Below, in pieces: positions 1 through 17,135 of a stretch of DNA of 17,135 bases. The position numbers and the translations under genes were made by a program. Source of the stretch: Sporodiniella umbellata (lineage: Eukaryota > Mucoromycota > Mucoromycetes > Mucorales > Rhizopodaceae); assembly GCA_025677835.1 (NCBI GenBank), contig JAIXMR010000185.1, positions 1 through 17,135 on the forward strand, read 5' to 3'. The notes beneath the pieces were generated by a model, which was not told the origin of the DNA, did no database searches, and saw only the letters and a list, made by a program, of their open reading frames with translations. The stretch's first letter is position 1. Each line of letters starts with the position of its first letter.

Positions 1-1015
1 TAGCATGATAATAGTAAATCATAAAGTAAAATCATCTTTAATGATAGTAAGTTGAAAACAAAAAAAGCAGAGTATACTTTGAAGCTGACAGCTATTAGTA
101 GGCCTATACGCCGATTAAAATTAGCATAAATGTATGGTCATGTACAACTTGCTGATCTGTCTATTTAAGAGTAGTTACTTCCAAATTGAACCTGATGGTC
201 AACGAAAAAAAAAAAAAAAGTTGGCTGATAATTTGTATATGCTATTGATCAGATAGGATAGACAAAAAATCACTATTGTAAGTAAACAAATCAAAAAAAT
301 AGTACTGTACAGCTGCCTTTCAAAAAAAAGCAATTTATCAGCTTGTGTAAAACCAAGGTACAAGGCAAAAAAAGGCGTTTTTTTTGTTTTTTTTTTTTTT
401 TTACTTGAAACTCTTCAATTACCAATAATATAGCTTCATTATTAATTTGGGCGCTTTTTGCTTTGATACGGATAGTTTTCCGCTTACTAACAGCAGAAAA
501 AGCTTGTATTTTTGCTCCGTACGCCTTTATTTTTAGATGGATTTGCAGCTGAAAAATACAGGTTTTTGAGGCATAAACATGAGGCACATTAGATACACAG
601 GTTGCTTTTATTAGTATGCTTTTCAATTTGCTGCTCTTTTTTTAGTTTAGGATTTTTTTTAATTTTTTTTTTTTTCACTGTACTCCATGAGTTTTAAAGT
701 TCATGCGCGGTCGTTTTGGGAAAAGCTGATAGCCAAAGAACGTCATGTTTTTGTCAAAAAGTCTGCAACACACTCCTATAGGCGAGGATTAACTTTCATA
801 AACGTCTTAATAGCTCCTGCTTACTTTTCTTTTTTTTTTTAATTGAAGAAAACAGGTGTTAGGAGAAACCAACACTGCAAAATCGGTCGCTTTTTGCAAA
901 AGTGGCTTTAAACTCTGTTTTTTTTCAGGAGAGGATCTATTTTATCGTTGTTTATAATTCATAGAATAGTCTAGCCTTTTTTTTGGGGGCAGATAATCTC
1001 ACTTTCACGCGATTT
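1..1015. other. Outer arm without a recognisable gene (mirror 11844-12862)
   Basis: AT-rich DNA with many homopolymers. The longest open frame of the window lies in the mirror (12236-12664) but opens with TTG and reads through an A16 run as poly-lysine. In the left arm it is cut by an A8/A9 difference near 322-329. I do not treat it as a gene, although the stretch before the poly-A could be an exon ending at a GTAAAA splice-like site. Confidence 0.5.
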
Positions 1016-1112
1016 TATATATAAAAAAGTATAAAACTAGGGTTTTTTGCTTTGTTTTTTTTTTTTTTTTTCATCTTATTTTCTCTTTGCTTGATTTTGG
1101 TCTACTGCTATG
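1016..1112 (+). promoter_or_regulatory. Promoter-like TATA and pyrimidine leader before an ATG, left arm
   Basis: TATATATAAAAAAG at 1016-1029 is followed by a T/C-rich tract (1043-1095, with a T17 run) and then ATG at 1110. The first codons read MVYE and are followed at once by GTAAGT, a good 5' splice site. TATA plus pyrimidine leader plus a short first exon is a common fungal layout. No convincing next exon could be chosen: an open stretch reading DELPPPRGWPW lies at 1209-1241, but its frame depends on a G run of 7 here and 8 in the other arm. Confidence 0.3.
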
Positions 1113-1120
1113 GTTTACGA

Positions 1121-1205
1121 GGTAAGTGGAGGTGGGGAGTGGTGGGGGTTGGTGAGGGTCGGTGGGGAGTGGGGGGGGAGGGGGAGGGTGGGAGGGGGGG
1201 TGAGG
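1121..1205 (+). repeat. G-rich tract, left arm
   Basis: About 85 bases made almost only of G with single T and A interruptions, including runs of 8, 5, 3, 3 and 7 G close together. Runs of three or more G with short loops fit the G-quadruplex pattern on the plus strand. It contrasts sharply with the AT-rich surroundings and starts at the GTAAGT following the small ATG. Confidence 0.8.
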
Positions 1206-1244
1206 CCAGATGAACTTCCACCTCCTCGTGGTTGGCCTTGGTAA

Positions 1245-2265
1245 TCATAGCCTTTTTTTCTTTAACTATGAGCTAAGAGAAGTTCCTTTTTAAAAAAAAC
1301 TTTTTTAAATAAAAACCATCTTTTTTAAATCATAAAAACTGTCTTGTATATCCTGTCTTTTTCTAATGTTGTAAAGTGTTTGCAGCTTTTAATAAGCGTT
1401 TTTCTTTCTGTTTCAATAAAAGAATACTCAAAGTTATAAAAAATCAAGTCAGGATTCTTTTTTTTTTAAAGCATGTTGACAATTGTCAAAGAATCTCAGA
1501 CATCTTCAGGACCCTCAGTAACACAAAGGGGTGTTTAGGCAGTGGCTGTCTAGTTTATATATTCAAACACAGTCACCAGAAGTTCGTTTTTTGAACGATA
1601 TACACACTTTTTTTTTTTTTTTTTTTTTTTTTTCGAAAACCACCTTTTAAAGCCTATTATCATAACAACAAACAACACAACAGTTGAAACCTTTTGTTGG
1701 CAATTGTTAGACTTGTCTAAAAGCAAGAAATAAATGAAAGAATCACGGCCCATTAGAGTTTAGAAAGCAATAAATGAACGCGTCACATTCTGTACAGGCT
1801 CACCATTAGTCGCATTGACTTTCTGCGACTTGTACTGTTAGCCGTGCTTTTGCTCTGTTATGCTCTGTTCTTGCTTTGGTTTTAATACTTTTTAATGAAA
1901 GAAGGATAAAAGTAGAAGCGTGACTCACAAAGCTTCAGCATTGTCCCTTACTGTTTTCTATACTCTCAACACTCAGTGGATCCCCAAGTACGAGATGCTC
2001 TAACTTTATACTATACAAAGTAAAACCAACAGCACAAAAAAGCTGTCATAAAGTATCTCTTTACTTTTTTTTAACAGCTATAAGGGAGTAAGGAATGTGG
2101 ATAAGAAAAATAGAGACAAACAAACCGGAAATAGCACGGTTAGAAATAATGCAAGAGATGCATATGGCTACTGGTTTATTAGAAGGAAATGTATTTTTGC
2201 AGATAAACATTGATCGAAAGTAAGACATATACTAACAGTTGGTATTAGAAAAAGGTTCCTAGTAT
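1245..2265. other. Arm segment without a recognisable gene (mirror 10585-11651)
   Basis: AT-rich sequence with several poly-T/A runs. Frames here are short, mostly without ATG starts or crossing the poly-T tract. I see no conserved motif, tRNA or terminal repeat. Confidence 0.6.
1608..1633. repeat. Poly-T tract, 26 bases (mirror A27 at 11222-11248)
   Basis: The longest homopolymer in the arms: 26 T here and 27 A in the right arm. Other long runs in both arms include A15 at 205-219, T16 near 387-402 and T17 near 1055-1071. Confidence 0.95.
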
Positions 2266-2537
2266 ATGACGTTGGTAAAAGTAACCTTGCACCAGAGCTG
2301 GAGTGATTTCAGCTCAGCAGTTGGTACTTTGGACTCAGCTATTGTCAAAAACCAAGAGAATCCACAAAAGAGAAAAAAACCCGTGTTGGGGTTGTTGAGC
2401 TTAGCCTGAAGCTCTTTTTATACGCAAACAATACCACCTTTGAACGGCAGAGGTTTTTGTTTAGTCAAACCCTAAAGCCAATGCTTGCTCTACAATTGGT
2501 CTTACGGCATATGTCTGTAGTAGTAGTAGTAAAGTAA
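2266..2537 (+). pseudogene. Mirror copy of the 90-codon frame, frameshifted
   Basis: Same sequence as 10312-10584 in reverse complement. The A run near 2376 has 7 bases where the right arm has 8, so the frame opened by the ATG at 2266 shifts after about codon 37 and does not reach the TAA at 2535-2537. Whether the base is really missing or is a sequencing error cannot be told from the sequence. Confidence 0.3.
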
Positions 2538-3208
2538 GAGATGTGCTATATCATACTTCTTATGGGGCACTTTATTACTACATCAACATGATCGACAAGA
2601 TATCTTTCGTCTCTTATTATTGCCAAAGTACTTGTTCAGTCACTGGAGGCGCTCTGGATATTTAAATGTTACTTTGTATAGCTCAGTAGTGGACAATGAT
2701 AGAACCAAGTGTTTAGATAAAGGCAGTGAACTGCAGTCATTATAGTACATCAAATATGGATCACAGAGATAGCGGTACAAGCCCAATACAGACGTAAAGA
2801 CCCTTCTCAGAGACAAAGAAGATTGTGAACGCTTTCTAGAGTAGCGGTAAAGAAAAAGAGAGATACAACAGTAGCGAAAGCAGCCATCAAACAGTTCTTA
2901 CGTTGAGCACACCAGGCCCAAGAAACCAAACTGAGCTTCAATACCTGTGAAAAATGGCTTGCAAATGATTGCTGTGAGTGAGAGCAATATGTAGTGTTTA
3001 CCCTATATACTAGTGCAAGCTATAATCTTCAACTTTGTTTCAAATAACCCAAATTCCTATAACACATAGAAGCTAAAGCCAATCTACTTATCTATCCTCC
3101 TTTAGAGCATAAAAGCAAAGTCTTTCTGTCAATGAATATGAGAGCGTTTCACAGTCTTGACGAAAAAATGTTATAAAATTGGGCACAATCATGTGGTTGA
3201 TATTATTT
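2538..3208 (+). other. Arm segment with coding-like debris (mirror 9640-10311)
   Basis: No intact gene. Short open stretches appear in alternating frames, for example TTVAKAAIKQFLR then a stop then AHQAQETKLSFN near 2867-2940, and TDVKTLLRDKEDCERFLE near 2789-2842. The pattern suggests a degenerated gene on the plus strand of the left arm, possibly continuous with 2266-2537. I recognise no family. The mirror in the right arm differs by one extra C near 10230 (CGCTCTC against CGTCTC). Confidence 0.2.
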
Positions 3209-3214
3209 TTTATT
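3209..3214 (-). terminator. P450 polyadenylation signal, left copy
   Basis: AATAAA on the minus strand, about 24 bases after the P450 TAG stop (3238-3240). It is mirrored in the right copy. Confidence 0.5.
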
Positions 3215-3237
3215 TGGTTTTTGCTATTAAACAACTG

Positions 3238-5036
3238 CTACACTATCGCTCTATCCTCCCTTTCTTTCAAGTGCACTTTGTACGGCGTAGGACCAATTGT
3301 AAATCCTGAATCAATAGTTTTCTCCAAGTCTGGATATAGTTTTTCACCTGAGGGTAAAATTTCTGGCTCTATAGAGCATGTAGCTAGGAGTTTTGAAATT
3401 ATATGAAACATATGGCTTTCAGCCTGAAATTATTTGATCAGTAAAACAGATAGACGGCTATACTATTAAAAATACCATGTATATGCCAGGGCAAATGCGC
3501 CTTCCCCACCCAAAACCATAGTTGTTTCTTTTTCTACACTTCCATTGCTTATAACATGTAAAGACCTTGTGTCGTTAATAAAACGGTCAGGATCAAACAC
3601 TTCTGGATTTGGAAACAAGGAAGGGTCGTTATTGATTGTGTGCATGTTTATATATATTATATGCCCTTTTGGAATGATGTAATTCTTATAGGATACTATT
3701 AGAAATTCAGTTTGGCTGCTTTAATCATATTTAGTATTGTTTACCGTCATTGGTTGCAAGATGAGGGGAAGCTAAGTGCAGAGGCAAACGAAATCTAAGA
3801 CACTCCTTGATTATCGCACAAAGGTAGGGAAGCTCTTTTCTATCCGAAAAGTTTGGCTGCCTTCCATTTTTCTTTATATAATCATTAATTTCTCGATAAG
3901 CTCTTTTTTGAACTTCAGGATGATGGCAAAGAATAGCCATAACCCATGCAGTTGCTGAAGATAAAGACTCGGTACCTATAAAAAGTGATTCACCTTTGGC
4001 GAGGTTAGAGGCTGTACTAAAGCGACAACTTGAAAACAATTACTCAATACAGCCATAACATTTTGATCGTCTAGCTCGTATTTTTCTTTCACTTCGTCGA
4101 TTTTTTTTACCAAACTATCGCTTTTACTTTTCCGAGCAAGAGCAAGAACCTCGCGAATAAACAAATGGAATTCTTTGTCTCTGAATTCAATCATCTTTTC
4201 TTTTCTCTTAAATATGGGGTCAAAGACCTTCAATATAGGAAACAACGCTGTATAATCTTCCGTAGGGCTAGAAAATCACATAGCCTGATTAACAAGGTAT
4301 CTTATTTTTTTGAAAAGTGGATCATTCAAACCGGATGGACAAGGAATGTCGAAAGTAGTAGATAGTATGATACTTATGCTTGCCAAGCTAGAGTATCTAT
4401 ATATATCTATGGCTTGATTATTTTTCGCATCTTCTCTCATCATGTCTACAATTCTCTGAATTTCACGGGATAGTACGTTGGATAGACTTTCCACAGAATT
4501 GGGCGATAAAACGGTCAAAACGGCATTTCTAATTTTTCTCCATTTTTTACTGTAACTAGCAAAAGCCAATCCACTGGGGAAAAAGTTTTAGTTTTTTTTT
4601 TCTTTTTTCTTTTCAAAGTTTATACCTATCGTTTGGAGAGTTCACCACGCTAAGAAATGTAAGCTCAGGTCGGCCGGATGTAAATACTCCTTGCTTGACT
4701 AAAAGTTCGTGTAGAGCCTCAGGATCGCTTATAAGTACCCAGTTATGAGATCCCATTTTTAATTTGAAAATAGGCCCTAGTTCTTTATGCCATTTGGTGA
4801 TGGCTATTCCCACTTTTTCTTTTATAAGAGGTGCGTGGCCTTCAAATAGTCAGCAAAGAATACAACCATTTTGATCTTTTACCAAAAATAGGGTACGCCC
4901 CTTTGGGAGACGGAATCTTCTCGCCACTGTATATTTTATTTCGACTATTTTTTTTGAACAAAAGATTTGCTAATACAATCGTCCGAAAGCTAGTTGCCAC
5001 AAGCAAAATGCTTTCTAAGCTGTAGATCGTTGACAT
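3238..5036 (-). pseudogene. Cytochrome P450 pseudogene, all six exons, TGA plus frameshift
   Basis: A microsomal P450 haem monooxygenase gene with six exons on minus: 4883-5036, 4626-4839, 4044-4573, 3745-3993, 3476-3695, 3238-3423. The introns are 43, 52, 50, 49 and 52 bp, all GT-AG, and frame is kept across every junction. With the one missing base restored it spans 517 codons, normal for the family. Visible parts are a hydrophobic N-terminal anchor (about 9-27), a proline hinge (KIPSPKGAYPIFG, 40-52), WRKIR in helix C (134-138), I-helix GTES (306-309), ExxR as ECLR (363-366), PDRF (418-421) and the haem loop FGWGRRICPG with ligand Cys451. Codon 222 is TGA (4276-4278). A T run at 3529-3533 is one base shorter than its mirror, shifting frame before Cys451. 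The substrate is unknown; similarity to Mucorales P450 families is an impression. As read, it cannot make an active enzyme. Confidence 0.93.
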
Positions 5037-5076
5037 GCGTATGTATATTAAGAAAAAAAACCTTTAAAATTTTCTG

Positions 5077-5084
5077 CTTTTATA
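5077..5084 (-). promoter_or_regulatory. TATA-like box upstream of the P450 start
   Basis: TATAAAAG on the minus strand, about 41-48 bases before the ATG at 5036. It lies in the spacer and is therefore present only for the left P450 copy. The spacing is short but possible for a fungal core promoter. Confidence 0.35.
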
Positions 5085-5431
5085 AATGATTTTTTGGGTT
5101 TTTTCGGCCAGCTGAAATATTATTTGAAAATAGCCTAGCATAAGTTTTTAATAGGTCATGAGTAACACTGACACTTTCAGTGGCAAAGTTTTTTTTATGT
5201 ATTTATCATTTATATCATAATGTTGTATAACAAAAGGTGTATAGGCAATTTCAATTTTTTAAAAGTTAGTTTAGCTTGTAAATAATTTGTTGGAATAAAC
5301 CCAATACAGAATGTGTTCAACTATACAGTAAAAGTACCTTGACCTAAATTGGTTTTTGAAATTAAGACTTTATAAATGTTTTGGGTTTATTAGATACGTC
5401 CCTTGCGGTTTTTCTGTTTCCCTTTTTTTTT
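5085..5431. other. Spacer segment upstream of the P450, no gene seen
   Basis: AT-rich sequence, presumably including the P450 upstream region. No other motif stands out. Confidence 0.5.
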
Positions 5432-6080
5432 TTAAAAAAAAGGTACAATGTTGTTTATGTTAAAGCGAGATTTGGGGCTTATTTTAGTATACATTATACT
5501 ACCACAATCGTAGTAGAAAAAAAGGCGGTCAGCACATTCAATTAAAAAGCCAGACCACATAGAAGTTACAAGGCATATGTGGGAAGAAATGCAATTACAG
5601 CAGGCAGTCTGCAATAAAATATAGAGAGACGGTATAACTTGTTCATTTTTAAGCAGCAAAGTCGGCCCCAAACACACTTTATGTATGTTCACATATCTCT
5701 AGTTTGTGCGAAACAACTAAAAAAGTGCAAAATTAAATCCAACACACATGCAGCTATACATTGCTATCCAATTTTTCCCCTCCACTTGTGAATATTAAGA
5801 GTAAAGTTTAACAGTAACAATCAATAAATACTTTTTTGAGAGTTATCTCTGGAGACACTTGCTATGTAGCAAATGTCGTCAAAGAGATAACATCGAGAGG
5901 GTTTGTTAGTGAATGTATGAATCTGTTAAAGAATCATCGATTACTAGCTGTAGTGCATTAAAAAAAATGATGAGCTCATCTCTTGGGAAATTTGTAAAAA
6001 AATAAACGTCTAGGAAACGTATCATCCAGGCTCTTTCGTCTTTTGATCTATGAGCAGCAACAAAAGGAGAAGAGAACTAG
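5432..6080 (-). pseudogene. Unrecognised decayed gene in the spacer
   Basis: Two coding-like blocks lie in the same direction. The upstream block (about 6070-5920 on minus) contains DERAWMIRFLDVYFFTN and then FPRDELIIFFNALQLVIDD before a stop. The downstream block is an ATG-started 86-codon frame (5432-5692) containing LIECADRLFFYYDCGSI and SPKSRFNINNIVPFF, ending at a poly-A/T run. Stops lie between the blocks. The residue composition looks like degenerated protein rather than random AT-rich translation. I do not recognise the family; it may be a lineage-specific or transposon-carried protein. It lies upstream of the P450 on the same strand, with no sign of shared transcription. Confidence 0.35.
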
Positions 6081-6249
6081 TGTAGAATGTAAAGTTAAAG
6101 GAGTTAGAAACACCTCTCTAGCCTATTTAATTTAAAAAAACTTGAAAACATGTCTGATCTGTTTCTTTTTTACACTTATAAAAGTTGATGTTTTATGTTT
6201 AAACTTTATACAATATTTACATTGGTCAGCAATACTTATCTTTAAATAA

Positions 6250-6480
6250 ATTCTAAAACTGAAAACTATCCTAAATCCCAAATCAAGGCTAAGCTTTTAT
6301 AGAAAGATACAGGTTATTACTTGGGCTGAGGACAGTTGGATTGCAGAGGGATGTCTAGGAGGAAAGGAGTCCAAAAGTTGTATCTTGCTGCTGCATAATA
6401 AGGAAATCGATGCCAAGCTTAAATGTGACCGTGCTTCTGTCGTCACAATTATTATTACGCGCAAATCCTTGCTTTAGTTA
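6250..6480 (+). pseudogene. Open coding-like stretch of about 76 codons
   Basis: A frame open from 6250 to a TAG near 6478, without an ATG. It reads with protein-like composition, including QVITWAEDSWIAEGCLGGKE and then KEIDAKLKCDRASVV. It could be an internal exon or a remnant of a mobile-element protein. I recognise no family, and chance remains possible in a sequence this long. Confidence 0.2.
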
Positions 6481-7619
6481 CATTTCTCTTTAGCCCATTC
6501 TGCCAATGTTCAGCCTAACTCTGTCTACATTCTATATAATGTGGCTCAATATCATTCACCAGAATATATACAAGGCGGTTGATTCTTCGGTCGCGCTTCC
6601 TTTCTAAGTGAGTGGTTCTAAGTTGGCCGTACAGGCTTTCCACGTAATTAATTATCTGCTCTCATTTTTGTGACATACAGTATCATTATTACAATCAAAA
6701 ATACATACATACACTCACCAACGTTTAGGGCACCTATCTTTTACATACAGGCTCCTCATATACAGAAATATGGCCACTTTCGTAAATGAAGTCTGTTATT
6801 GTATTCTCCTACATCATACTTTCATTCGAGCGATTATTGCAGAGCCGACTTGATATCTTACAAACATTAAAAAATAGGCTTTTGGTAGTATCGAATGATC
6901 TGTTTGTAAACAGGAGAATTGGATCCAGCGACTGAGTGCCTTGTTATAATAGTATACAAGATTCCTCCTTTGTTGATGTTGTGACGGAATGAATGACATT
7001 AAGACAAATACCTTGCAAGATAAACATTTCATTTAAACAAGACAGCAGGATTACTTGGTATACATGGGTGTAACTTTACGGCCATGATCACATCGTTCTT
7101 CTCCGTTTGCTTACTATGTAGACACCTAATGGCTAGACCAGATAAATTGTCTGTATGGTAGAGTAATGTCCCAGTTGTTCTTTCCAAATGTACCTTTACG
7201 GCTACGATCGTATCGCTCTCTTTGGCTACGACTCTTGCACTGACATCTATTAGTCTTGTGAGATTGTCTATAATTTCTAAAGATGAAAATTGTCTTTTGT
7301 AGAAACTGCCAGTTTTCTTATTTATCTTATCATTGTACTTTCATTACATACAAGTAGCTGTAAATTTTATAGGCTCTTCCTCATTTCCATTTACAATGTT
7401 TCCTGTGCCATCTTTGAAATAAAATATGTAGCTCATTTTAATTGTGTTTTGTTGACTAGAAGATTTACTATAAATGCGATATCTTTTTTTATTTTTATTT
7501 ATGCGACACTATCGATTTTGACACTTTCTTAAAAGATAGAACACTTTATTTTTTTAACACGTTATTTTTTTAAAATTGTGCGCTAACTTAAATTTTTTTT
7601 AGTTCGACATCATTTTGGC
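6481..7619. other. Spacer segment without a recognisable gene
   Basis: Open frames here (about 72 codons on minus at 6814-7032, about 80 on plus at 7290-7532) are hydrophobic or low-complexity and show no motif. The missing upstream part of the Tc1-like transposase would be expected toward 7000-7600 but is not visible. A pair of imperfect repeats lies at 7069-7222. Confidence 0.5.
7069..7222 (+). repeat. Diverged repeat pair, about 120-bp period
   Basis: TGTAACTTTACGGCCATGAT at about 7069-7088 recurs as TGTACCTTTACGGCTACGAT at about 7190-7209, and similarity continues for another 12-15 bases. Most mismatches are transitions. It may be the remains of a tandem duplication or of element ends. 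Confidence 0.45.
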
Positions 7620-7880
7620 AAAAGGTGTCTTTTACCTGGATAGCAGCTTGAGGACAGCTCTCTTATTCACCCAAACTTAGCCTTATCGAAAATCTCCGGG
7701 AAAATATTAAAGGTAAAATAAAATACAATATTTCCAAAGGTGTTGAAACGCTGGCTACAAGAATTATCGAAACTAGTAAAACTGTACCTGTTGAATACAT
7801 TTTGATATTCTTTATCACCATTATAGAGTAAAACAAACTTCAAGAAAAGTGCTTTAAAAAACAATATCTTTCTTATTAGG
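7620..7880 (+). pseudogene. Tc1/mariner-like transposase, decayed C-terminal end
   Basis: A frame across about 7661-7880 reads SPKLSLIENLRENIKGKI, then VPVEYI, then KLQEKCFKKQYLSY before a final stop. This matches the end of Tc1-type DDE transposases, where SPDLNPIENLW carries the last catalytic Glu, followed by IPxEYI and a lysine-rich tail. The Glu codon is 7688-7690. Decay is clear: DLNP has become KLSL, Trp of ENLW is Arg, a TAA interrupts the tail, and the LLPWPA-like part just upstream is in another frame. I could not find the helix-turn-helix, the first two catalytic Asp residues or terminal repeats. It cannot be active; a related tnp family is an alternative, but the motif spacing favours Tc1. 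Confidence 0.65.
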
Positions 7881-8095
7881 AAAAATTTAATAACTCAAAG
7901 AAAAAAGCAAGTGGTCCCTTCCTATTTTGGTTGAGGTTATGAAGTGTCTATTGCTTACGTTTTGTTGCCATGTATGTCAAGAATATAAGACTAATTACAT
8001 TAAACTATATAGCCACCTTAAAAAAATACAAAATTATGTTAAGATAAGAGTGTAAATACTTAAAGCTATATTTTTTTAAGAATTTTTTTCGCTTT

Positions 8096-9610
8096 TCTCA
8101 TAACTGGGTACTTATAAGCGATCCTGAGGCTCTACACGAACTTTTAGTCAAGCAAGGAGTATTTACATCCGGCCGACCTGAGCTTACATTTCTTAGCGTG
8201 GTGAACTCTCCAAACGATAGGTATAAACTTTGAAAAGAAAAAAGAAAAAAAAAAACTAAAACTTTTTCCCCAGTGGATTGGCTTTTGCTAGTTACAGTAA
8301 AAAATGGAGAAAAATTAGAAATGCCGTTTTGACCGTTTTATCGCCCAATTCTGTGGAAAGTCTATCCAACGTACTATCCCGTGAAATTCAGAGAATTGTA
8401 GACATGATGAGAGAAGATGCGAAAAATAATCAAGCCATAGATATATATAGATACTCTAGCTTGGCAAGCATAAGTATCATACTATCTACTACTTTCGACA
8501 TTCCTTGTCCATCCGGTTTGAATGATCCACTTTTCAAAAAAATAAGATACCTTGTTAATCAGGCTATGTGATTTTCTAGCCCTACGGAAGATTATACAGC
8601 GTTGTTTCCTATATTGAAGGTCTTTGACCCCATATTTAAGAGAAAAGAAAAGATGATTGAATTCAGAGACAAAGAATTCCATTTGTTTATTCGCGAGGTT
8701 CTTGCTCTTGCTCGGAAAAGTAAAAGCGATAGTTTGGTAAAAAAAATCGACGAAGTGAAAGAAAAATACGAGCTAGACGATCAAAATGTTATGGCTGTAT
8801 TGAGTAATTGTTTTCAAGTTGTCGCTTTAGTACAGCCTCTAACCTCGCCAAAGGTGAATCACTTTTTATAGGTACCGAGTCTTTATCTTCAGCAACTGCA
8901 TGGGTTATGGCTATTCTTTGCCATCATCCTGAAGTTCAAAAAAGAGCTTATCGAGAAATTAATGATTATATAAAGAAAAATGGAAGGCAGCCAAACTTTT
9001 CGGATAGAAAAGAGCTTCCCTACCTTTGTGCGATAATCAAGGAGTGTCTTAGATTTCGTTTGCCTCTGCACTTAGCTTCCCCTCATCTTGCAACCAATGA
9101 CGGTAAACAATACTAAATATGATTAAAGCAGCCAAACTGAATTTCTAATAGTATCCTATAAGAATTACATCATTCCAAAAGGGCATATAATATATATAAA
9201 CATGCACACAATCAATAACGACCCTTCCTTGTTTCCAAATCCAGAAGTGTTTGATCCTGACCGTTTTATTAACGACACAAGGTCTTTACATGTTATAAGC
9301 AATGGAAGTGTAGAAAAAAGAAACAACTATGGTTTTGGGTGGGGAAGGCGCATTTGCCCTGGCATATACATGGTATTTTTAATAGTATAGCCGTCTATCT
9401 GTTTTACTGATCAAATAATTTCAGGCTGAAAGCCATATGTTTCATATAATTTCAAAACTCCTAGCTACATGCTCTATAGAGCCAGAAATTTTACCCTCAG
9501 GTGAAAAACTATATCCAGACTTGGAGAAAACTATTGATTCAGGATTTACAATTGGTCCTACGCCGTACAAAGTGCACTTGAAAGAAAGGGAGGATAGAGC
9601 GATAGTGTAG
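8096..9610 (+). pseudogene. Cytochrome P450 pseudogene, 5'-truncated copy
   Basis: Mirror copy of the minus-strand P450. It starts abruptly at codon 82 inside exon 2. Exons are 8096-8220, 8274-8803, 8854-9102, 9152-9372 and 9425-9610 (stop TAG 9608-9610), with introns of 53, 50, 49 and 52 bp. It lacks the membrane anchor, proline hinge, first intron and the ancestral promoter. The in-frame TGA (8569-8571, codon 222) is identical to the left copy, so that nonsense change predates the duplication or was spread by gene conversion. Unlike the left copy, the A6 run at 9314-9319 keeps frame through PDRF and the haem loop FGWGRRICPG. No upstream ATG continues its frame, so it is a dead fragment unless transcribed by read-through from the spacer. 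Confidence 0.93.
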
Positions 9611-9633
9611 CAGTTGTTTAATAGCAAAAACCA

Positions 9634-9639
9634 AATAAA
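9634..9639 (+). terminator. P450 polyadenylation signal, right copy
   Basis: AATAAA about 24 bases after the TAG stop at 9608-9610. It is the mirror of the signal at 3209-3214. Confidence 0.5.
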
Positions 9640-10311
9640 AAATAATATCAACCACATGATTGTGCCCAATTTTATAACATTTTTTCGTCAAGACTGTGAA
9701 ACGCTCTCATATTCATTGACAGAAAGACTTTGCTTTTATGCTCTAAAGGAGGATAGATAAGTAGATTGGCTTTAGCTTCTATGTGTTATAGGAATTTGGG
9801 TTATTTGAAACAAAGTTGAAGATTATAGCTTGCACTAGTATATAGGGTAAACACTACATATTGCTCTCACTCACAGCAATCATTTGCAAGCCATTTTTCA
9901 CAGGTATTGAAGCTCAGTTTGGTTTCTTGGGCCTGGTGTGCTCAACGTAAGAACTGTTTGATGGCTGCTTTCGCTACTGTTGTATCTCTCTTTTTCTTTA
10001 CCGCTACTCTAGAAAGCGTTCACAATCTTCTTTGTCTCTGAGAAGGGTCTTTACGTCTGTATTGGGCTTGTACCGCTATCTCTGTGATCCATATTTGATG
10101 TACTATAATGACTGCAGTTCACTGCCTTTATCTAAACACTTGGTTCTATCATTGTCCACTACTGAGCTATACAAAGTAACATTTAAATATCCAGAGCGCC
10201 TCCAGTGACTGAACAAGTACTTTGGCAATAATAAGAGAGCGAAAGATATCTTGTCGATCATGTTGATGTAGTAATAAAGTGCCCCATAAGAAGTATGATA
10301 TAGCACATCTC

Positions 10312-10584
10312 TTACTTTACTACTACTACTACAGACATATGCCGTAAGACCAATTGTAGAGCAAGCATTGGCTTTAGGGTTTGACTAAACAAAAACCTCT
10401 GCCGTTCAAAGGTGGTATTGTTTGCGTATAAAAAGAGCTTCAGGCTAAGCTCAACAACCCCAACACGGGTTTTTTTTCTCTTTTGTGGATTCTCTTGGTT
10501 TTTGACAATAGCTGAGTCCAAAGTACCAACTGCTGAGCTGAAATCACTCCAGCTCTGGTGCAAGGTTACTTTTACCAACGTCAT
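10312..10584 (-). CDS. Unrecognised 90-residue open frame, right arm
   Basis: ATG-started frame of 90 codons ending in five GTA (Val) codons, AAG and TAA. It has a basic stretch (QKRKKTR, about 34-40) followed by a mixed hydrophobic/polar segment containing LFLYANNTTFERQ. The composition looks more like translated protein than most frames here, but I do not recognise a family. Downstream on the same strand (about 9870-10300) there are further short coding-like stretches in shifting frames, so this may be the head of a larger decayed gene. The mirror copy at 2266-2537 is broken by one missing A. It could be transposon-derived; no domain supports any function. Confidence 0.3.
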   Translation of the reverse strand: MTLVKVTLHQSWSDFSSAVGTLDSAIVKNQENPQKRKKTRVGVVELSLKLFLYANNTTFERQRFLFSQTLKPMLALQLVLRHMSVVVVVK

Positions 10585-11651
10585 ATACTAGGAACCTTTT
10601 TTCTAATACCAACTGTTAGTATATGTCTTACTTTCGATCAATGTTTATCTGCAAAAATACATTTCCTTCTAATAAACCAGTAGCCATATGCATCTCTTGC
10701 ATTATTTTCTAACCGTGCTATTTCCGGTTTGTTTGTCTCTATTTTTTCTTATCCACATTCCTTACTCCCTTATAGCTGTTAAAAAAAAAGTAAAGAGATA
10801 CTTTATGACAGCTTTTTTTGTGCTGTTGGTTTTACTTTGTATAGTATAAAGTTAGAGCATCTCGTACTTGGGGATCCACTGAGTGTTGAGAGTATAGAAA
10901 ACAGTAAGGGACAATGCTGAAGCTTTGTGAGTCACGCTTCTACTTTTATCCTTCTTTCATTAAAAAGTATTAAAACCAAAGCAAGAACAGAGCATAACAG
11001 AGCAAAAGCACGGCTAACAGTACAAGTCGCAGAAAGTCAATGCGACTAATGGTGAGCCTGTACAGAATGTGACGCGTTCATTTATTGCTTTCTAAACTCT
11101 AATGGGCCGTGATTCTTTCATTTATTTCTTGCTTTTAGACAAGTCTAACAATTGCCAACAAAAGGTTTCAACTGTTGTGTTGTTTGTTGTTATGATAATA
11201 GGCTTTAAAAGGTGGTTTTCGAAAAAAAAAAAAAAAAAAAAAAAAAAAGTGTGTATATCGTTCAAAAAACGAACTTCTGGTGACTGTGTTTGAATATATA
11301 AACTAGACAGCCACTGCCTAAACACCCCTTTGTGTTACTGAGGGTCCTGAAGATGTCTGAGATTCTTTTGACAATTGTCAACATGCTTTAAAAAAAAAAG
11401 AATCCTGACTTGATTTTTTATAACTTTGAGTATTCTTTTATTGAAACAGAAAGAAAAACGCTTATTAAAAGCTGCAAACACTTTACAACATTAGAAAAAG
11501 ACAGGATATACAAGACAGTTTTTATGATTTAAAAAAGATGGTTTTTATTTAAAAAAGTTTTTTTTAAAAAGGAACTTCTCTTAGCTCATAGTTAAAGAAA
11601 AAAAGGCTATGATTACCAAGGCCAACCACGAGGAGGTGGAAGTTCATCTGG

Positions 11652-11737
11652 CCTCACCCCCCCCTCCCACCCTCCCCCTCCCCCCCCACTCCCCACCGAC
11701 CCTCACCAACCCCCACCACTCCCCACCTCCACTTACC
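11652..11737 (-). repeat. G-rich tract, right arm (C-rich on plus)
   Basis: Mirror of 1121-1205, with the G run nearest the P450 side one base longer (8 against 7). The quadruplex-capable strand is minus here. Confidence 0.8.
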
Positions 11738-11745
11738 TCGTAAAC

Positions 11746-11843
11746 CATAGCAGTAGACCAAAATCAAGCAAAGAGAAAATAAGATGAAAAAAAAAAAAAA
11801 AAACAAAGCAAAAAACCCTAGTTTTATACTTTTTTATATATAA
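11746..11843 (-). promoter_or_regulatory. Mirror promoter-like element, right arm
   Basis: Reverse-complement copy of 1016-1112: TATA-like sequence at about 11830-11843, A/G-rich on plus (pyrimidine-rich on minus), and an ATG on minus at 11746-11748 followed by GAG and GTAAGT. The same reservations apply. Confidence 0.3.
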
Positions 11844-12862
11844 AATCGCGTGAAAGTGAGATTATCTGCCCCCAAAAAAAAAGGCTAGACTATTCTATGA
11901 ATTATAAACAACGATAAAATAGATCCTCTCCTGAAAAAAAACAGAGTTTAAAGCCACTTTTGCAAAAAGCGACCGATTTTGCAGTGTTGGTTTCTCCTAA
12001 CACCTGTTTTCTTCAATTAAAAAAAAAAAAGAAAAGTAAGCAGGAGCTATTAAGACGTTTATGAAAGTTAATCCTCGCCTATAGGAGTGTGTTGCAGACT
12101 TTTTGACAAAAACATGACGTTCTTTGGCTATCAGCTTTTCCCAAAACGACCGCGCATGAACTTTAAAACTCATGGAGTACAGTGAAAAAAAAAAAAAATT
12201 AAAAAAAATCCTAAACTAAAAAAAAGAGCAGCAAATTGAAAAGCATACTAATAAAAGCAACCTGTGTATCTAATGTGCCTCATGTTTATGCCTCAAAAAC
12301 CTGTATTTTTCAGCTGCAAATCCATCTAAAAATAAAGGCGTACGGAGCAAAAATACAAGCTTTTTCTGCTGTTAGTAAGCGGAAAACTATCCGTATCAAA
12401 GCAAAAAGCGCCCAAATTAATAATGAAGCTATATTATTGGTAATTGAAGAGTTTCAAGTAAAAAAAAAAAAAAAACAAAAAAAACGCCTTTTTTTGCCTT
12501 GTACCTTGGTTTTACACAAGCTGATAAATTGCTTTTTTTTTGAAAGGCAGCTGTACAGTACTATTTTTTTGATTTGTTTACTTACAATAGTGATTTTTTG
12601 TCTATCCTATCTGATCAATAGCATATACAAATTATCAGCCAACTTTTTTTTTTTTTTTCGTTGACCATCAGGTTCAATTTGGAAGTAACTACTCTTAAAT
12701 AGACAGATCAGCAAGTTGTACATGACCATACATTTATGCTAATTTTAATCGGCGTATAGGCCTACTAATAGCTGTCAGCTTCAAAGTATACTCTGCTTTT
12801 TTTGTTTTCAACTTACTATCATTAAAGATGATTTTACTTTATGATTTACTATTATCATGCTA

Positions 12863-14150
12863 CAAAAAAACAAAATTTACAAAACTGTTTGTATATTTAA
12901 CAATTTACCTACATTTAGCTGTACAGTCTGGTCTTTCAGTTGTGAAAATAAAAAAAGAGAAGTAGTAATAAAAAGTAGTATATAAAAAAAAATGCTAGTT
13001 AAATTTTTTTTTTTTACACATATTACTTAAAAAGAGAATATGTTTTCATTAACATGTATCTATATTTACTTTTGTATTCTTTGTTCTTTGTTTTTGCTAG
13101 CATAAAAACGGTGTATCTTATTGAATTACAGTGCTATTTCTTTGTTATAAGCTTATAAGATTCAATTTCATTATACTTGAAACATAGTGTTATGAAAAAC
13201 AAGCTATTATGTTAAAATTTTATATGTTAAAAAATAAGAGTTAAAAAAAAAAAAAAAAAAAAAACTGATCTATAATGCTTACACTTAATACCATAGCAAA
13301 ATCACCAATTCAGATAGTAGAACGCCAAAGATTGGCTATTTTATATTTAAGCAGTATACAGAGAAATACACTACTGGCTTGCAATTATCAAGTGTCTCAT
13401 TAGATATTATGCTTAGTTTTACTTTTAGTTGCATATACTTTTTACAAGAGCTTACAGTTGAAAAGAAATGTATATTAATACATACATAAGCGTTTTTACA
13501 GCAAGACGCGTAGCAGAATCAAATATAGAGCACAGAAGAAAGCTTAATACCCAAAAAGCGACTTACAAAACAAAATAAACAAATATACTAAGCTATGTGT
13601 ATACACAAGCCATGATTATGATCAACCAACATTTTGTATAATCAAAAATATACCACAGAGAATAGCAGCATGCTAACATGTAATCTTACCCAACGTGGTA
13701 GATCCTATTAACATAATCCATAGTTGAAAACAGTCTTACTACGGATAAACTAACAGGCAAAGGTACAAAACTGTAAGTCATTTTCATAATTATATAAATA
13801 TATGTTTAACATTTCAAGTATGGTAAAGCTCATTAATTAAGTTTACCTATAGATACATTCACTAACTGAAAGACAAAAGTCAATAGAAAGCAATAGTGGT
13901 GACTTGTTGAAAGACTGTATATCAATGTTAATTGTATACAAAAAAAAAGTTTCATTAATACACTTGTCTTTCAAAAGTCGAAGGCTGGAACTATCACTTA
14001 CCAACACTTATCCCTGAGCTTCTGTTCAAAAAAGCTTATTTAGGCTTGTTACATCTGAGTTTGTAATAAAGAGAAAGGGACACTACAGACCGACTGGATC
14101 TAACAGTAGACATATTGTGTCACCATAGAGTGATACGTCACACTCATAAA
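12863..14150. other. Right flank, AT-rich, no gene seen
   Basis: No supported gene. It contains an A22 run at 13243-13264 and shorter poly-T/A tracts. It begins just where the left arm leaves the window, so it may be a continuation of the inverted repeat whose partner is not shown. Confidence 0.5.
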
Positions 14151-14232
14151 CAGTAGTGTGCCAAAGAATAGACAGTAGTGTGCCAAAGAATAGACAGTAG
14201 TGTGCCAAAGAATAGACAGTAGTGTGCCAAAG
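14151..14232 (+). repeat. 22-bp minisatellite, about 3.7 copies
   Basis: Unit CAGTAGTGTGCCAAAGAATA plus GA, with copies starting at 14151, 14173 and 14195 and a partial copy at 14217-14232. The full copies are identical. The 22-base period is not a multiple of three, which argues against the minus-strand open frame crossing it being a real gene. Confidence 0.95.
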
Positions 14233-15599
14233 GACCACAGTCAAGTAATACAACGGACATAGAGGAAGGTTGTATAGCACGAGCTTTGGGAATAATATAG
14301 AGAGGCCTTTGCATTTCAAATAATGTTAGGGTCTTTTTGTTTTTGAGTCCTATTAATCTAATTTACCTTCGCTGATGAGTACAGCAACCCCATTACATAC
14401 TGGCATTTTCACTTTGGTTTGGGTATTGGAGGTGGATTCATTGTCAAAGTTGTGCAAGGACATTTTCAAGCTTAATAAGATGAAAAGAAAAAGAAAAGGG
14501 GAACTTTTTCATTTTTTCATACGTTTTTTCGCTTCCCTGTAGTATCCATAGTCGGGGCTATCACTTTTAGACTGTAATTACTTTCATTATGCTCAACAGC
14601 CAATCGTCCAAGGCCTCTGGGGATTCGTCATACGTTTCGCATATCATATATGAGCTTCTCAATAAACATTCGAGTTATTCTGAATGCAGTTTTTGAAACT
14701 AAAGGAAAAGGATCATCTTTGTATGCATGGCTGTCGCAACTACTATATATGGTCATCTTCCGAACGAGTCATAGAGGCGGAAGTGAAAGGCCAATTGGAT
14801 TTTCTAAGGGTTGGTCTGTTATTAAAAGCAGTTTCCAAATAAGGACTAGCTCTAAGCCCCGGTTCAGAAAGCTTCTCTTTTTTTTCTTCTTCTTTATTTG
14901 GTTTTGCCTGAACAAAGAAATCAAATGGCGTAATGTTTTATTAGATGAGTTAACGATTTTAGTAAAAGAAAAAAGCTGAAAAGTGAAAAAAAAAAAAAAA
15001 AAAAAGAGGGAAAGCAAGAGATTGTAAAAGATTACCAAATCTATGAACAAAATGACAATCTAGACAGTTGCAAAAACTCTGAGCCATGATTCGAAAAAAA
15101 AAAAAAAAATACGAAAAAAGCTACAGAGAATAACAAATAATATGCTTATTGATGTGGATATCAGTACCAATCCCAAGAGAAAGATGTGGAGAAAACGCGT
15201 GTATATATGGGCTTAAGAAAATAGGAAAATAGTTTCAAAGTATCCTAAACAAAACAACTTAACATCTAGAGTTTCAAAAAAGGTTTATCGTAAACGAGAA
15301 TATTTGGGATGCAGAGACAGTTTCCCAACTAAAAGCTAGTGAATGCAAATCGATTCTCAAGACTATTTTTGTATAGAGCTAATAGTGAGTTACCAGTAGT
15401 ATATTGAGAGGATACATGTTTAAGATCCGAAACTAGCATAACCTGTTTAAACTTACATACATTGAGTAAAAAGTTCTACACATTTTACTCCTCTATGCTT
15501 GTTCGTCGCCCATAATAAATAATAATAAAAAAACGCAGATAATTCTTTAGATGATACTTGTAAATCGCATCAAAAAGAGTCTACAGCAGTGCAGCTATT
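14233..15599. other. Right flank, possible gene debris only
   Basis: No intact gene. On minus, 14743-14877 is an open stretch containing LSEPGLRASPYLETAFNNRP, and fragments in other frames follow toward 14510. It might be a decayed exon set but matches nothing I recognise. The overlapping 109-codon plus-strand frame (14650-14979) runs through a pyrimidine run as poly-Phe and is probably chance. Poly-A tracts lie at 14986-15005 (A20) and 15094-15109 (A16). Confidence 0.35.
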
Positions 15600-15670
15600 G
15601 CCAGTGTATGCTAAGGTAAAAGATTACATGATTTGATCATAAGATCACGAGTGTTCAAGACTCTGTACAT

Positions 15671-17135
15671 GTCATATGTTGTACTATAATCCTTTTCTAA
15701 TATGAATAGAAAAAATCGCTTGATTTTTCACTTTCAGTGTACTTTTCTATTCCGCTAATCCTGTTAGCATACAGGCTCAAGACTAAATCCTCTATAATAT
15801 TGCAAGTATATTATTTCTTTATCGAATTTTAAGTAGGTTGTTTAGAAGAAAATACGATTGAATGCTTATACAGAGAATTAGGGTTCAGTTGCAAGTAAGT
15901 TTCAGCATGCATAACAATAGACTCAGTTTGCTATACAAAAGCTATAATTATTAGGCTAGATTATCAATACAAATAATTGATATTGGATTTATCGATAACT
16001 ATAGAATGTTACAAGTATGGTAGTGCAGTTTCTCTTCTAGGAGAGCTGATTACTAGGAAGAGCATTGACTGGATCTTAAAGAATTCAACACAGTCAGCCC
16101 GCATCACCTCCAATTACCAACAAGAGTTTTGGGTTCTACGGCACTGTGAGCTCAATTGTTGTTGAATATAAAAAGTTTATACGCGAATGGGTAATAATGG
16201 AGAAAAAGTAGACATATTCACAGTAAAATAATACAAAGGTCTTTGTTAGTATTCAGGACGAAAACCTGTTGGGAAAAACTCGCTATCTATTTAGCTTTAT
16301 TTCAGGCCAAATCATAGCAGAGAAGGAGCTAATTCTGAAGATAGGTATAAATAACGCAAGACGAAGCAATTCAAATACCGTGGTTGGATCAAGAAGAAGG
16401 CTTGAAATCGATTTTTCCTAATGTACCTACGCTCTATTCTTGCGGAACTCAGATTTTTAAACATCTTGATTAAATCAATGTTATAGCTCATCTTTGTAAA
16501 TGTAGTTAGAACTAATGTCAATAGCTGATTCATGAGAAGGTTGAGACAAGGCTAGAGTTACCAACATGCTTATATTATATTCCCTTTTTTGAGACTCGCA
16601 TAACGCAAGACAGTAACGTCACCAGATGTAAGCTCAAAAAGAAAACCCAAGTACTTGTCTATACTGATGGCATTTATGTGTTTTCGTCAGTACTCATAAA
16701 AATCTCTCATGTTCAATACTGTCTTTTTTTGTCGTAAACGCTTGAGCTTGGCTTTTTTTTTTAGGATTAAGCTGGTAATGAGAAGCTGCCAGAGTTGGAA
16801 GCGACCTGCCAGCGAAACTTCCATATTTGGGCTAGGGCAATGACGATGACTGTGGCAGAAGAGAGGTTAAGGTGATAAAAACTAATGCTTTGGCCAATTG
16901 TTTTTTAATATTACAATTTTTTCTTTGCCTTTTTTGATAAAGTTATGTAGCACTTTGTATTAGAGCTCTGCGCGATTCCATGTAACACATTGCATTTCAC
17001 GATTTATAGTTCTGTATACATATCTCAACTTATCAAAGCTACTGTAATCTTTTCATTGCTCCGTATATATGACTGATTCAGGAAAATCATTCCATGTTAC
17101 CAAAGCTAATAGAGCTCTAATTCTGTTGGCAGCAG
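15671..17135. other. Right flank end, no supported gene
   Basis: Short open stretches only. A minus-strand one near 16310-16430 reads LLLDPTTVFELLRLALFIPI. A plus-strand one at 16771-16875 reads KLPELEATCQRNFHIWARAM just after a pyrimidine-rich AG (16753-16764) and ends in TGA; it could be a last exon, but another frame is open there too. Neither is recognised. Confidence 0.3.

Follow-up and report, generated by a model that had tools for sequence, protein, structure and literature searches.

A near-perfect inverted repeat spanning a cytochrome P450 gene in Sporodiniella umbellata: probable inverted chimera or misjoin, possible recent fold-back duplication

A small contig of Sporodiniella umbellata (order Mucorales, family Rhizopodaceae) carries one segment twice, in opposite orientations, with a copy of a cytochrome P450 gene at the inner end of each. 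Does the chromosome carry this arrangement as well, or was it created on the way to the assembly? And if one of its junctions is new, which one? The window analysed here is the entire contig C96, 17,135 bases long, from an assembly of 25,946,857 bases in 198 contigs, the others of which are likewise designated by C and a number.

Structure of the inverted repeat

The initial annotation described a near-perfect inverted repeat with arms of about 4.75 kb and a 3.3 kb spacer. Self-BLASTN bears this out with the coordinates exact: positions 1-4750 align to 12862-8096 on the minus strand, in an alignment of 4767 columns that has 17 gaps and 0 mismatches. The structure is observed directly, and chance is no issue for a repeat of such length. 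It consists of the following parts.

1 to 4750, plus strand: left arm, from contig base 1, with 17 single bases fewer than the right arm
4751 to 8095, plus strand: spacer (loop) of 3,345 bases, in which the left P450 copy has its 5' end and which is the only full-length copy among the matches listed
8096 to 12862, minus strand: right arm, the reverse complement of the left arm
12863 to 17135, plus strand: right flank, joined to the arm in four of four paralogous copies (C3, C25, C97, C135)

Contig base 1 already belongs to the left arm, and the stated arm length is therefore a lower bound. A 22-base tandem repeat is also present at window positions 14146-14232, in four copies with 98% matches.

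Differences between the arms

All 17 gaps are one base long and there are no substitutions, in agreement with the earlier statement that the arms differ solely by single-base length changes. The differences are one-sided: it is always the left arm that lacks the base and never the right (two-sided sign probability 1.5e-5, under the null that each arm is equally likely to be short). Homopolymers of at least four bases hold 16 of the deletions, and the probability of loss climbs with homopolymer length. With runs classed by right-arm length, a base is gone from the left arm in 10 of the 20 that measure at least 8, in 4 of the 21 of 6-7, in 2 of the 102 of 4-5 and in 1 of the 3067 that are shorter. 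Divergence over time is expected to leave substitutions plus gaps in both arms. The one-sided homopolymer deletions resemble residual errors of long reads rather than divergence, and from this pattern the assembly appears to be based on long reads. Without a single substitution, and with all 17 deletions in one arm and 16 of these in homopolymers, the arms thus stand for what is essentially a single template, poorly polished in one of them. The error pattern marks the left arm as weakly supported; alone, it is no direct sign of a false junction.

Do the paralogues have the run lengths of one arm or of the other? This comparison is limited to conserved sites, the remaining ones being too diverged in the paralogues. 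The right-arm length is found at right-arm position 638 in four of four paralogue copies, at 1494 in four of four (with a substitution), at 3544 in two of two (one with a substitution) and at 322 in two of four, where none has the left-arm length. At the long run at 833, C25 has the right-arm length and C3 that of the left arm; C3 also has the left-arm length at 665. The first 2.6 kb of the left arm holds 15 of the 17 deletions and also most of the long runs; an error gradient toward the contig end was considered and set aside (P = 0.27 once the distribution of long runs is corrected for).

The cytochrome P450 copies

The two copies of the gene, with approximate ends, are as follows.

3241 to 5036, minus strand: left P450 copy (P0002), frame-shifted at 3528 when compared with the right copy
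8096 to 9607, plus strand: right P450 copy (P0001, 'partial'), lacking the 5' end

The deposited names are 'cytochrome P450, partial' for P0001 and 'cytochrome P450' for P0002, both assigned to Sporodiniella umbellata. When the window P450 was used as a protein query, 7998 candidates were scored and 85 proteins were found at E <=0.001, including P0001 and P0002. A third protein, P0003, is a P450 that bears the same species name and comes from a contig of 94,716 bases, which is the length of C14. With Pfam PF00067 (cut-off 22.8 bits), P0001 scores 258.5, P0002 218.8 and P0003 277 bits; the profile is above the cut-off in 3 of 10 window pieces. A viral collection searched with the P450 piece yielded no relative.

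The left-arm deletion at base 3528 has a consequence for the gene, as it leaves the P450 residues ahead of the heme motif in a different frame from the motif itself. The motif, FGWGRRICPG, is in frame with the preceding residues in the right arm, C14 and C97, and at the site of the shifted frame P0002 is without residues that are present in P0001. In addition, there is an in-frame TGA at window positions 8569-8571 and at the corresponding left-arm position, a codon that is absent from the C14 and C97 relatives and is omitted from the deposited P450 proteins. As it is common to both arms, the window P450 gene may be a pseudogene, whether the repeat is an artefact or real. Other genetic codes were considered and rejected: code 6 makes frames longer, but reads two stops as residues, and the P450 exons fit the standard code.

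Which junction is new?

The gene offers a means of telling the two inner borders of the repeat apart.

4750/4751, no strand: natural junction, crossed by the P450 exon at 4616-4849 (minus strand), the C14 paralogue being likewise continuous
8095/8096, no strand: derived junction and fold-back point, where the right P450 copy is truncated

A stop-free stretch in the left copy, 4616-4849, spans the first border. Its P450 match covers profile positions 11-76 (36.4 bits), and it aligns with P0003 over 71 residues at 73% identity. In the C14 DNA, a 72% match to the inner arm is directly adjoined by one to the first 218 bases of the spacer at 67%. In the right copy, the P450 match starts at the 8095/8096 border itself, at profile position 40 and with 12.8 bits, below the cut-off; 41 residues align there with P0003, and P0001 starts, with NWVLISD, just inside the border. 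Because the P450 is continuous over 4750/4751 and in C14 and is cut at 8095/8096, the former is the natural junction and the latter the derived one. This polarity rests on a single paralogue, C14, and the P450 profile. The P450 of C97 is without residues at about 5900-5930, near the equivalent of the derived junction, perhaps by coincidence, and C97 is therefore unusable as a second witness of polarity.

What of the outer border? The alignments from arm to flank are unbroken in all four paralogous copies, and 12862/12863 is therefore natural as well. With two natural junctions and one derived junction, the contig reads as flank, arm and spacer folded back, with a loop of 3,345 bases.

The spacer and related regions in the assembly

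The spacer has at least 42 matches in the assembly; the best of the 41 partial ones listed is 345 bases at 84%. No contig with a normal continuation past 8095 is found among the spacer matches listed. Part of the spacer, window positions 6106-6324, belongs to an old dispersed repeat, for which the genome shows more than 20 partial matches of about 68-79% identity. A 60-base spacer match, which lies about 1.16 kb into each of C36, C178 and C181, raised the idea of a subtelomeric spacer. This was rejected, as none of six telomere-like patterns occurs in the window or within the first 9 kb of C36.

Four contigs (C3, C25, C44, C97) start or end within relatives of the flank 12863-17135, at 81-98% identity; a multi-copy flank region thus repeatedly breaks the assembly. 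No inverted pair is present at the five paralogous places examined (C3, C14, C25, C97, C135). A comparable inverted repeat was found in none of 12 other stretches, four of which are whole small contigs (C97, C98, C109, C110), a small sample in which the sole inverted pair is one of 143 bases at 90% in C98; fold-backs elsewhere in an assembly are a frequent accompaniment of artefacts and not a strict requirement. C97, of 17,037 bases, carries a direct repeat of about 704 bases (1-704 and 12321-13024, 98.6% identity, period 12.3 kb), which is either a segmental duplication in tandem or one more assembly fault.

Origin of the repeat

How did the second arm arise? An inverted chimera or misjoin is favoured, as the probable account, over a real recent large-loop fold-back duplication. 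The chromosome would then hold a single copy of flank, arm and spacer. The contig would read the arm (1-4750) and spacer (4751-8095), change strand at 8095/8096 by a jump to the inner end of the arm and then read arm and flank outward (8096-17135). We infer that the junction at 8095/8096 would be absent from the cell and would have come either from an inverted chimeric molecule, produced by strand switching in the course of amplification or library making, or from a misjoin by the assembler, in the setting of a small, poorly supported contig. With few supporting reads, the left arm would retain run-length errors of long reads. An artefact is favoured because the deletions are one-sided and bound to homopolymers with no substitutions, because a contig of only 17 kb opens directly with the left arm, because 8095/8096 cuts a P450 that is continuous over 4750/4751 and in C14, because a left-arm deletion shifts the P450 frame and because the multi-copy flank breaks the assembly in four other contigs. 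The joined segments are inverted and close, with 3,345 bases between the joined ends, and sequencing-type errors alone distinguish the arms. Counting against an artefact are the lack, among the matches listed, of a second full spacer copy or a normal continuation past 8095, and the empty result from the 12 other stretches. A simple missed-adapter read is rejected: the spacer would appear twice, and it appears once.

The single spacer and its missing continuation, as if the distal part had been lost, are points that speak for a real, very recent inverted duplication of the order flank-arm-spacer-arm'-flank', a lesser though serious possibility. An end broken beyond the spacer would have been resected and then folded back or template-switched, with arm and flank copied outward, and the left arm would merely be under-polished in the assembly. 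In all or some nuclei, part of the P450-bearing multi-copy region would possibly be duplicated and the sequence beyond the break lost. The contig has the arm-loop-arm' order with a single derived junction that such an event produces, and the absence of a similar repeat in the other stretches also fits. Precedents are known: fold-back inversions in yeast have a median loop of 36 nucleotides, and some, in the cited account, have hairpin loops of many thousands (PMC7467729), while an interaction in single-stranded DNA is described as possible for inverted repeats as far as 30 kb apart (PMC10164571). Against a real event, the second (left) flank is unseen, the left arm ending at the contig edge, and normal read depth over both arms would make errors confined to one of them less likely. 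Could the repeat instead be an older palindrome, its arms held identical by gene conversion? Arms of 4750 bases without a substitution are what this would predict; it is unnecessary, as a single template accounts for the identity, and quite improbable given the five paralogous places without an inverted pair, a derived junction that cuts a gene, and the lack of any relative found with the same pair that would show age. The polarity given by the P450, with 4750/4751 natural and 8095/8096 new, likewise points to a fold-back with a loop, not a long-maintained palindrome. Least credible of all is an inverted repeat of organelle type, which would resemble plastid maps in having a pair of long inverted arms that enclose a spacer, here single among the matches listed; it is rejected by the gene content, since neither a tRNA nor an Rfam hit at the gathering score is present in the window, which holds an intron-bearing P450 of a Mucorales fungus. 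A very recent event, gene conversion or an artefact had all been offered in the initial annotation; the artefact emerges as the likeliest, gene conversion is not needed and a recent fold-back retains a smaller share of the probability.

Comparison with known systems

Among chimeras of multiple displacement amplification (MDA), 406 of 475 were inverted, and 337 of 475 were inverted with joined segments less than 10 kb apart, according to the available part of the report (PMC1855051). The contig resembles this class in that nearby segments, 3,345 bases apart, are joined inverted; it is unlike the chimeras of that account in that its DNA is not known to be amplified. Palindromic long reads are known from amplified DNA (PMC6218980, PMC13265396), where the portion of one report seen gives 44-48% of reads in two amplified Arabidopsis sets versus 0.5% in an unamplified control (PMC6218980), and from ligation libraries too (PMC13141652). 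As with these reads, so far as they are described in the cited excerpts, the arms of the contig differ only in an error-like way. Unlike MDA chimeras and palindromic reads as there presented, no normal spacer copy is present among the assembly matches listed.

The order arm-loop-arm' and a loop of thousands of bases are shared with the large-loop fold-back inversions of Saccharomyces cerevisiae, in the part of that work cited (PMC7467729); unlike those, the contig is without a left flank, and the structure is known here from assembly sequence alone. Origin-dependent inverted-repeat amplification also forms new inverted junctions, and in the extract available its products are inverted triplications (PMC4689423), unlike the contig, which has two copies and one new junction.

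Significance of the repeat

Should the repeat be an artefact, a single P450 gene appears twice in the deposited protein set (as P0001 'partial' and P0002), and the contig ought to be regarded as broken at 8095/8096. Whether it is artefact or real, run-length differences confined to one arm, together with a gene that crosses one border only, constitute a cheap screen for contigs of this kind that needs nothing but the sequence. If the repeat is real, it would represent a natural fungal example of the large-loop fold-back inversions that have been studied in yeast mutants.
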